Source: Bacillota bacterium (GTDB taxonomy: Bacteria > Bacillota > SHA-98 > UBA4971). From it: DNA of 40,644 nucleotides. Location of the stretch: positions 1 through 40,644 of the forward strand of contig JASEJE010000027.1 in NCBI GenBank assembly GCA_030024085.1. Reading direction: 5' to 3'. The notes below the pieces were generated by a model that had not been told where the DNA came from, made no database searches, and saw only the letters and a list, made by a program, of their open reading frames with translations. Shown piece by piece: positions 84 through 36,734 of this stretch. Within the stretch, counting starts at the first letter, position 1; every line of letters starts with the position of its first letter. The position numbers were made by a program, and so were the translations under genes.

Positions 84-190
84 GGACCTCCACTACTACT
101 CCGTTACGTATGGATCTCCTGGTACTGCCGTCGCCCGAGCTGACAGCTGACATACGTCACGGGTTTTTCGTTAGGCGTCCCACCCCCCTT
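84..190 (+). repeat. Copy of the leading segment of the 34.8-kb ACGTCA array
   Basis: About 90 bp here align almost base for base, with roughly ten substitutions, to 34796-34890. Shared landmarks are GTTACGTRTGGAT, CTGGTACTGCCGTCGC and ATACGTCACGGGTTTTTCG. At 34.8 kb this sequence leads into the phased ACGTCA array. Here it stops after a single ACGTCA motif (154-159). It lies directly upstream of the pcrA promoter. Confidence 0.7.
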
Positions 191-33159: not shown

Positions 33160-34517
33160 TGCCACCAGGACGGGTATGCTCAGGTGGTCTCAAGCTCGCG
33201 GTCATAGGCGGGGGCTCGAGCTACACGCCCGAACTCGTGGACGGGGTCATTCGCAGGGCGGATGAGCTTCCAGTGAAACGCATTGCCCTCGCGGACATCC
33301 CCGATAGCCGCGAGAAGCTGGACATCATCGCCGGCCTCACCCGGCGGATGATCCAGCGGGCGGGGCTGGACATTGAAGTGACCGCGGGCTTCGACAGGGA
33401 GAGGGCCATCTCCGGCGCGGACTTCGTGGTGACACAGTTCCGGGTCGGGGGGCTTGCGGCGCGCGCCCAGGACGAGCGCATCCCGCTCAAATACAACATC
33501 ATCGGCCAGGAGACCACAGGTCCCGGCGGGTTCGCCAAGGCCCTTCGGACCATTCCGGTCGCCCTCGACATCGCTCGCGACGTGGAGCGCCTCGCCCCGG
33601 ACGCGTGGCTCATCAACTTTACCAACCCTTCGGGGATCGTGACGGAGGCCGTGACCCGGCACACCGGCGCCCGGTGCATCGGTCTGTGCAACGTCCCCAT
33701 GAGCATGCAGAGGATGATCGCCGCACGTCTCGGCATAGATCCTCGCAGCGTGAAGGTAGAGTTCGTAGGCCTGAACCACCTCAGCTGGGCGCGCAGGGTG
33801 ACCGTGAACGGCACGGATGTGACCCGAGCCATCCTCTCGCACGACCTCGTAAGGCGCGAGTTCGAGCACGCGGGAGGCGTCGGGGGCGCCGCGGACGCCC
33901 CGGGGCTCCTGGACGCGCTCGGCATGATCCCGTCCTACTATCTGCGCTACTACTACTTCCATGACGCCCTTGTGGAGGACGAGAAAAGGCAGATCCAGGA
34001 GGGGCGCGGCACCCGCGCGGACCAGGTCATGGCCATCGAGAAGGAGCTCTTCAAGCGGTACGCCGACCCGGGCCTCTCGGAGAAGCCCGCCGAGCTTTCA
34101 CAGAGGGGCGGGGCGTGGTATTCGGAGGCGGCGCTCGCATGTGTCTCGGCCATCTACAACGACAGGGACGAGGTGCACGTGCTGAACGTGCCGTCGCGGG
34201 GGGCGGTGCCCGACCTTCCGGACGACGCCGTGGTCGAGACGAACTGCCTGGTGAACGGGACGGGAGCGCACCCCGTGGCTCAGGGGCCTCTACCCGACTC
34301 CATCCGGGGCCTCGTGCAGCATGTCAAGGCATACGAACGGCTGACTGTGGAGGCGGCAGTGAAGGGTGACGCGGGTGTGGCATATCTCGCCCTTCTTGCG
34401 CACCCCCTGGTGCCTGGCGCAGCTATCGCGAGGTCGCTCCTTGAAGACATTCTGCGCGCCAACGCCGGGCATCTGCCAGGCTTCGAAAAACCCCTGAAGG
34501 ACAACAAGGATTCGTAG
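33159..34517 (+). CDS. Family GH4 glycosidase (6-phospho-beta-glucosidase-like)
   Basis: 452-residue NAD+- and Mn2+-dependent glycosidase that works by oxidation at C3 and elimination. An N-terminal Rossmann motif (KLAVIGGGSSYTPELV), NFTNPSGIVTEAV, metal ligands C177 (GLCNVPMSM) and H207 (GLNHLSW), and a C-terminal helical region are present. The C-N-V-P form is typical of the 6-phospho-beta-glucosidase branch rather than the alpha-galactosidase or alpha-glucosidase branches. ATG 33159 overlaps the PIG-L stop; the conserved fold begins near residue 11, so a slightly later start cannot be excluded. No PTS genes are seen nearby, so the phosphorylated substrate's origin is unclear. Confidence 0.93.
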   Translation: MPPGRVCSGGLKLAVIGGGSSYTPELVDGVIRRADELPVKRIALADIPDSREKLDIIAGLTRRMIQRAGLDIEVTAGFDRERAISGADFVVTQFRVGGLAARAQDERIPLKYNIIGQETTGPGGFAKALRTIPVALDIARDVERLAPDAWLINFTNPSGIVTEAVTRHTGARCIGLCNVPMSMQRMIAARLGIDPRSVKVEFVGLNHLSWARRVTVNGTDVTRAILSHDLVRREFEHAGGVGGAADAPGLLDALGMIPSYYLRYYYFHDALVEDEKRQIQEGRGTRADQVMAIEKELFKRYADPGLSEKPAELSQRGGAWYSEAALACVSAIYNDRDEVHVLNVPSRGAVPDLPDDAVVETNCLVNGTGAHPVAQGPLPDSIRGLVQHVKAYERLTVEAAVKGDAGVAYLALLAHPLVPGAAIARSLLEDILRANAGHLPGFEKPLKDNKDS

Positions 34518-34795: not shown

Positions 34796-35300
34796 CTAAT
34801 TCTACTCTGTTACGTGTGGATTTCCTGGTACTGCCGTCGCTTGAGCCGACAGCTGACGTACGTCACGGGTTTTTCGTTAAGCGTTCCCTACGTCATCAGT
34901 GAGGGCTGTCGAGTGACGTACATCACTGGTCCCGGCCTTACCCGTTCCCTCCGTCACACATGCGAGGGGATGGATGACGTACGTCACTCGTCAGGCTCTT
35001 CCCGTTCCGTACCTCACGCATCTGAAGCCAAACGGTGACGTGCGTCATCGTTCCCGCCTTACCCGTTCCCTGCGTCACGGGTTCTCCACCAAGCGTTCCA
35101 TACGTCACTCGTCGGAGCGGCACCAGTGACGTACGTCACTGGTGCCTCCTGAGCCGTTCCCTACGTCATCATTGGGAACGATCGACTGATGTACATCACT
35201 GGTCCGGGCATTACGCGTTCTCTGCGTCACGCGTCGAATCCAACTGCTGACGCATATCACTACTCCCGCCTTACCCGTTCCGTACATCACGGGTGCTCCA
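34796..35300. repeat. Phased ACGTCA repeat array (15 motifs, 30-31 bp apart)
   Basis: ACGTCA or a one- or two-base variant occurs at 34860, 34890, 34920, 34951, 34981, 35011, 35042, 35072, 35102, 35133, 35163, 35193, 35224, 35254 and 35284, each 30 or 31 bp from the last. Alternate motifs sit in a palindrome TGACGTACGTCA, giving a 60-61-bp higher-order unit with a conserved CCCGCCTTACCCGTTCCC filler. One unit has an extra half (35036 to 35127). The array lies between convergent genes. It is not CRISPR-like because the fillers are similar to each other. Confidence 0.9.
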
Positions 35301-35382
35301 GGAAGTGCACGGTCAAGGACCACCAGGGCCAGGAGTCGCCATGCCAGACAAGCCCGCCAGGCCCACGAGGCCGGGTGGCATT

Positions 35383-35952
35383 TCATATCTGACAAAGTAG
35401 TATTAGCAGGGAGGGTTGCGCGGCCGTAGAGCCGCCAGGTCGCGGCTCTGCGACGACGGTCGGCGCGGCGGCAGCGGCCAGGCGATCAAGCGCAATGGCG
35501 AGCCATCTGACAGTGAAGGTGCGTGGGCTTCCAGCGAAGTGCTTGAGTCGTATGGTAAACGTGCCGTTGTAGGGTTTGCGGACCATCGCCGAGAGATGCA
35601 CGGGCACTTCCGTAGGGGGACCGCCTGACTCAGACCGGCTGTCGATGGATTCGTAGTAGTCGAACTCCTGTAGATCGAGCCCGAGAACCACTGCCACGGG
35701 GACTCTTCCGAGGCTGTGGTTTACTGTTGTGTGCACCGCTTCGCGGGAGGGTGCAGTTATGGTTACCGATCCACATGAGGCGCGTAGAGTAGCTTCGCCC
35801 CAGGCGCCGCCGGGCGTGCCGCGCGCATCCAGGGGGGCGTGCCGCTGCTCGCGTATGGACACGAGCAGGGTCAGGCCGAGACAGAGCGCGATACAGCCGG
35901 CGACCAGGAGGCCGCATGTGAGTGCTCGAAGGAATCCCGCTCGAAGGGCCAT
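35383..35952 (-). CDS. Membrane-anchored hypothetical protein
   Basis: 189-residue protein that I do not recognise with confidence. Residues about 8-34 form one hydrophobic helix (FLRALTCGLLVAGCIALCLGLTLLV), a likely anchor or uncleaved signal. The remainder is a predicted beta-rich domain: GSVTITAPSR, TVNHSLGRVPVAVVLGL, VPVHLSAMVRKPYNGTFTIRLKHF and FTVRWLAIAL. The spacing and the final VRWLAIA strand recall the H-type lectin or related phage-type sandwich domains, a weak resemblance. ATG 35952 has GAGGGG about 7 bp upstream; ATG 35979 lacks a site. It is convergent with the repeat array and GH4 gene, with no clear operon partner. Confidence 0.6.
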   Translation of the reverse strand: MALRAGFLRALTCGLLVAGCIALCLGLTLLVSIREQRHAPLDARGTPGGAWGEATLRASCGSVTITAPSREAVHTTVNHSLGRVPVAVVLGLDLQEFDYYESIDSRSESGGPPTEVPVHLSAMVRKPYNGTFTIRLKHFAGSPRTFTVRWLAIALDRLAAAAAPTVVAEPRPGGSTAAQPSLLILLCQI

Positions 35953-36500: not shown

Positions 36501-36542
36501 TGTCCTCACCTCCATGCATCATCGGGCGGCAGATCTGCTGCC

Positions 36543-36734
36543 TGAGCGTGGGCTCATGAAGCCGTACCGGTCTGGTCGAGACCGCCGGGGTGTGGTGCCT
36601 GCCCGACGGGGCGCCTCCGATTCGGCTGGCCTCAAGCGCCAAATCCAACGAGGCGTGCCGTGAGCGCGCCGTCCCCGGCGTGCAGCACCGCGAGCCTGCT
36701 GGGAGAATGGCGGCAACCTCTGAGCCCACATTCT
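36543..36734 (+). repeat. Family B palindromic element with both ends (copy B4)
   Basis: Terminal arms GTGGGCTCA (36548-36556) and TGAGCCCAC (36721-36729) are perfect complements. The core from about 36603 to 36700 aligns with 16002-16097 of the family A element (GACGGGGCG...CGCCAAAT.C.AACGAGGCGYGCCG...GCGCGCCGTCCCCGG). This copy therefore joins B-type ends to an A-type core. It lies in the divergent gap between DUF1657 and the DUF2148 gene. The rest of that 371-bp gap shows no gene. Confidence 0.7.

Follow-up and report, generated by a model that had tools for sequence, protein, structure and literature searches.

Dispersed repeats such as BIME/REP, Correia and similar sequences bind host proteins, for instance IHF or gyrase. 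An extinct transposase source is common for MITEs, and subterminal motif arrays are found in plant CACTA elements and, as TnsB sites, in Tn7. Among sequence-specific regulators, CRP/FNR proteins have an operator geometry of TGA-N6-TCA with an outer A/T at +/-10.5. Our literature search found no description of IS701 MITEs with operator arrays.

Here we analyze a stretch of 40,644 nucleotides from a Bacillota bacterium (GenBank assembly GCA_030024085.1, contig JASEJE010000027.1), referred to as the window, in which a first-pass annotation made from the sequence alone had noticed an array of regularly spaced motifs. The array belongs to an element of a known kind, a MITE, in a form for which we found no description, with a long phased operator array and two half-site types.

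A phased array of operator-like sites

The fifteen sites of the array (window positions 34854-35300) start at 34860, 34890, 34920, 34951, 34981, 35011, 35042, 35072, 35102, 35133, 35163, 35193, 35224, 35254 and 35284, with successive intervals of 30, 30, 31, 30, 30, 31, 30, 30, 31, 30, 30, 31, 30 and 30 bp (mean 30.29). The pattern NYRTCA was matched by 14/15 sites and was absent off-phase within the array (Rayleigh R 0.998), and the longest chain of 30/31-bp steps among 1000 dinucleotide-preserving shuffles was 3. The phasing at 30-31 bp reported by the first-pass annotation is thus real and stricter than had been claimed. Its description of fifteen ACGTCA motifs was correct for the number and phase of the sites; the exact word is found on the + strand at only 6/15 positions, the other sites being related words (ACATCA, GCGTCA, CCGTCA and so on).

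The sites are of two types. R1 sites follow A-N4-TGA-N6-TCA-N4-T and R2 sites follow A-N3-G-TTC-N6-TCA-N4-T, with 7 and 8 of them, respectively, in the window array (Table 1). They alternate, save for one R2-R2 step. The exact 12-bp palindrome TGACGTACGTCA, in which the earlier annotation had every second motif embedded, occurs at three positions (34854, 34975 and 35127); in the literature this 12-mer appeared only in unrelated cancer papers. The 91-bp interval (35036 to 35127), said to add one extra half unit, does so.

Table 1 Features of the element and its array in the window.
Feature	Position	Strand	Basis or remark
Left target-site duplication, CTAA in the window copy, YTAR type	34796..34799		alignment of copy ends
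Left terminal inverted repeat (TTCTACTCTGTTACGTGTGG...)	34800..34823	+	copy-end alignment
Whole gene-less element, IS701-type MITE by its sequence	34800..35402	+	dispersed loci with common boundaries
Right terminal inverted repeat	35380..35402	-	copy-end alignment
Right target-site duplication, TTAG in the window copy	35403..35406		copy-end alignment
Phased array of 15 operator-like sites	34849..35294	+	site-phase analysis; length 446 bp
R1 sites, TGA-N6-TCA	34854-34865, 34914-34925, 34975-34986, 35036-35047, 35127-35138, 35187-35198, 35248-35259		both triplets intact in 162/168 (24 copies)
R2 sites, TTC-N6-TCA	34884-34895, 34945-34956, 35005-35016, 35066-35077, 35096-35107, 35157-35168, 35218-35229, 35278-35289	+	both triplets intact in 180/192 (24 copies)
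28-bp perfect palindrome around one R1 site	35119..35146		inverted-repeat pair
Second copy, truncated left end, one site, 5' of a uvrD/pcrA-like gene	105..180	+	sequence

The array lies within a dispersed mobile element

A search for other arrays in the genome of the window (G000), proposed in the first-pass annotation, returned ~40 dispersed loci on 26 contigs, mostly 70-91% identical, many of which end at the same two boundaries. These enclose an element of ~603 bp, without called genes in any of 37 copies, which has terminal inverted repeats (TACTRCTCTGTYA...) flanked by 4-bp YTAR duplications. Identical duplication pairs were found at four loci (CTAG at L027 and L029, TTAG at L028 and CTAA at L042), and the window copy is flanked by CTAA on the left and TTAG on the right. 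The element's ends, without the array, also delimit short elements of 125-158 bp, two of which likewise lie between identical YTAR duplications (CTAA at L079 and CTAG at L086). A TA target duplication, of the IS630/Tc1-mariner type, was dropped in favor of YTAR once all ends had been compared.

Another genome of the same class, G013, carries an IS701-family transposase (NCBIfam NF033540, 397 bits). The ends of this IS701-family element, which lie on different contigs, are identical to those of array copy L021 at 22/24 positions on the left and 25/29 on the right, and the G013 element is without the array. Because of the inverted ends, the YTAR duplications, the matches to IS701-family ends and the short array-less elements with the same ends, the window feature is, judged by its sequence, a MITE of the IS701 type with the array inside.

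The transposase that moved the element was sought within the genus. No matching IS701-type transposase was found, with no DDE_5 match in a profile search of G000-G005, of which the draft G000 assembly may miss it. Nor was an autonomous partner found in G000, where the end matches listed included no facing pair 0.8-4 kb apart. DDE_3 matches in the genus were rejected as the element's transposase, being without its ends, and a phage or plasmid origin was rejected for want of a match in plasmid or phage records.

Genes around the copies were called from codon usage, with a simple program that had been trained on the window. None of 37 G000 copies lies within a called gene; 22 are between tandem genes, 9 are divergent, 5 are convergent and 1 is unassignable. 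The window copy follows a GH4 glycosidase gene (+) that ends at 34517, and the next called gene is on the - strand. The convergent intergenic setting described earlier therefore holds for this copy and is not general. For copies between tandem genes, the + strand of the element runs against the gene strand in 17 cases and with it in 5. The boundary of several elements coincides exactly with the stop codon of a neighboring gene, the TAG/TAA of which lies in the YTAR target.

Twenty genes facing the arrays had no function in common. This counts against a dedicated regulon and favors either a role in the chromosome at large or one that belongs to the element. We also rejected a regulon reading on the grounds that the neighboring genes are unrelated and that six of the seven solitary sites inspected in other genomes are inside open reading frames, probably by chance.

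A second dispersed repeat is found at 36541-36730 and 1-56 of the window. The end of this repeat (...CTGGAAAAGTGGCGGTGATTTCTGAACCCACACTTAG) is joined without a gap to the left ends of array elements L021, L024, L025, L028, L033, L037, L042 and L043, as if that TTAG were a favored target.

Phased arrays in other families of the class

Within the genus, matches to the element were found in G001-G004 and none in G005. In a class sample of 17 genomes, a strict pair pattern, defined as two palindromes 30 or 31 bp apart, matched G015 and G016, which belong to two other families, and its reversed control gave 0 matches. The arrays of these two genomes are composed mostly of R1 sites, with TTC-N6-GAA and TGA-N6-GAA sites in addition. 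Almost all of the sites keep to a single phase of 30-31 bp; L185 and a stretch of L147 are less regular. The two half-site types occur in G016 in free combination on a common grid, and the arrays of this genome are dispersed repeats themselves, with a different left end. Spacers in the G015 and G016 arrays are largely different, although some segments adjoining sites look homologous, and no IS701-type ends were seen at these arrays. The first-pass annotation had pointed to loss of phase in relatives as an outcome that would speak against its reading; phase is kept in the G015 and G016 families, whereas the sites are decaying at an orthologous copy in G001.

Two further observations concern these families. 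In G015, IS701-family-like ends at L120, L121 and L122 adjoin pieces of another transposase (IS1634-like by our reading), an arrangement suggestive of hybrid or nested elements. Immediately downstream of the L185 array (G016, contig C10) is an open frame, the start of which looks, again by our own reading, like an AbrB-type regulator.

A scan of the collection for palindromes paired at a distance of 30-60 bp gave related matches in this genus only, and other matches at varied spacings in unrelated taxa; the scan did not return G015 or G016 and is thus not exhaustive. Unrelated phased sites of the TGAYGTACRTCA type were seen in other taxa (L165, L167, L169, L172, L173, L174 and L175). A Verrucomicrobia contig has four such sites spaced at 42 bp and Labilibaculum has three, spaced at 40 bp; in Prevotellaceae there are iterons of 21-22 bp, and two viral contigs have 42-bp pairs.

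Conservation of the site letters

To compare the sites with the rest of the element, 24 copies (23 from G000 and one from G002) were aligned and folded onto the site phase. Only 17/2159 cells (0.8%) varied in the TGA, TTC and TCA triplets, compared to 15.5% in the spacer (16.7% without CpG positions), 14.0% in the inner hexamer and 3.3% at the +/-10.5 positions. When the triplet mask was shifted by 4 to 28 bases, variation was 9-19%. Private changes, i.e., those seen in a single copy, which may partly predate insertion, amounted to 0.144 per triplet column versus 0.491 per spacer column. The 13 private changes in the 90 triplet columns were below all 20000 base-matched draws (mean 32, lowest 16). 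The pair of G000 and G002 copies at C1 (L037/L097) was set aside as a test of selection, since its left junctions differ by an insert of ~207 bp. Judged from the substitutions in the aligned copies, selection seems to act on the array in this lineage.

Selection of this kind could stem from transposition itself, with the array acting as a subterminal binding array for the mobilizing transposase or an accessory factor, and with constraint on source copies only. The array does travel inside the MITE, shared triplet variants are far rarer than private ones (2 versus 13), as constraint on source copies would give, and the G001 ortholog decays. However, the ends that are needed for transposition vary by 15-22% (15-16% among the 16 copies that have both), like the spacer or worse, and the triplets do not. 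Copies with a lost or badly decayed end, such as L026, L023, L032, L034 and L037, retain 88-90 of their 90 triplet letters. Since the ends decay like spacer and copies lacking an end keep their triplets, the sites would seem to be kept for something other than moving the element. The same ends are also found without the array, both in the IS701-family element and in the short elements, and the arrays of G015 and G016 have other ends. On balance, a role in transposition is rather unlikely.

At the orthologous copy in the sister-species genome G001, triplets (7/54 changes) and spacer (28/153) showed no significant difference (P 0.41), and constraint appears to be relaxed there. Apparent orthologs at the same insertion place measure 609 bp in G000 and 336 bp in G002, suggesting that the length of the array can change by blocks of whole half-units.

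A candidate binding protein

The genome encodes one full-length CRP-type protein (L201:1492-2199; cNMP_binding 97 bits, HTH_Crp_2 63 bits), whose recognition helix reads TRETVTR. The CRP/FNR operator core is present in the 7 R1 sites of each copy, and R2 sites have one such half only. This match in operator geometry, together with the single full-length member in the genome, makes a CRP/FNR-type protein the leading candidate for the binder of the array. A CRP-type protein is found in all array-bearing genomes, with no strong match in genus g2; this co-occurrence is weak evidence, because G005, G013 and G014 have the protein and no array was found in them. CRP alone would not explain the R2 half-site (GTTC). 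R2 and TTC-N6-GAA do not fit a plain CRP operator, and the GTTC half-sites perhaps reflect a partner protein or an alternative half-site. On contig C3 of G000, array copy L035 is ~2 kb from the CRP-type gene, which with ~40 copies can be chance.

Discussion

A mobile element with defined ends has spread a phased array through this genome, and the contact letters of its sites are constrained. We think it probable, from the sequence patterns, that this IS701-type MITE carries 15 operators for a dimeric, sequence-specific DNA-binding protein, placed about three helical turns apart on the same face of the DNA. Short triplets that do not vary, placed symmetrically with six bases between them and an A/T further out, are the pattern that a dimeric helix-turn-helix protein would read, and at a spacing of 30.3 bp bound dimers would face one side of the DNA, where they could touch their neighbors or bend the DNA in phase. 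Binding of the protein would presumably be cooperative, and the arrays would be of use to the host, or to a resident factor, and not to transposition. The cooperative DNA-binding array suggested by the first-pass annotation stands as the best reading, since the conserved letters make up a symmetric, operator-like pattern of 22 bp, three families keep the phase and the triplets are strongly constrained. A single origin, a partition site close to the origin or a boundary between convergent genes is unlikely because the array is part of a mobile element at ~40 dispersed loci.

A role at the RNA level, with the element transcribed and its palindromes folding into hairpins that are recognized or that stabilize transcripts, is improbable. 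Folding is stronger than in dinucleotide shuffles for either strand (z -6.0 and -6.9), but palindromes together with inverted ends would be expected to fold strongly in any case. Furthermore, the triplets are invariant rather than covarying, the TTC of R2 cannot pair with TCA, no Rfam match was found at the gathering score and the orientation of the element relative to genes is mixed. It is likewise improbable that the array is a partition or centromere-like site, like those of SopC or ParR, of an integrated plasmid or the chromosome: tandem palindromes at regular spacing do resemble partition and iteron arrays, but the copies number ~40 and are spread over 26 contigs, the neighbors scanned include no partition genes, and plasmid and phage records gave no match. 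Finally, a neutral satellite, whose spacing would be a mere by-product of tandem duplication inside the MITE and which could account for length changes by whole half-unit blocks, is strongly disfavored to the point of being hardly credible, with a ~20-fold depletion of change in the triplets and a phase kept across families with largely diverged spacers.

Operator arrays for a dimeric protein might also be part of something wider. As a tentative proposal, a host-maintained system may exist across the class, in which dispersed phased operator arrays form nucleoprotein assemblies at ~40 chromosomal sites, with TCA and GAA as interchangeable half-sites on one three-turn grid, spread by MITEs and retained for chromosome organization or silencing. 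Should the constraint be borne out, some forty platforms, each with multiple docking sites for protein, would have been planted across a bacterial chromosome by a transposable element and retained once that element had lost its mobility. Mobile DNA would then have become chromosome architecture, in a case that can be tested directly.

The element shares its inverted ends, 4-bp YTAR duplication, lack of coding capacity and dispersed intergenic copies with MITEs of the IS701 family. Unlike these, it has a 446-bp array of 15 phased sites with contact letters apparently constrained after insertion, and no transposase was found in its genus. With BIME/REP and Correia repeats it has in common a dispersed, intergenic distribution, a mobile origin and probable binding sites for host proteins; those repeats have one to few sites each, whereas the window element has 15 sites in strict three-turn phase and of two half-site types. 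SopC, ParR and iteron arrays likewise consist of tandem palindromic or iterated sites at fixed spacing, yet a replicon has just one or a few such loci, to which genes are linked, in contrast to the ~40 dispersed loci found here. CRP/FNR operators share the TGA-N6-TCA geometry and the outer A/T, and the genome has a CRP-type protein with a RETVxR helix. The window array differs from such operators in its alternating GTTC half-sites, its tandem arrangement of 15 sites and its neighbors, which are not regulon-like.
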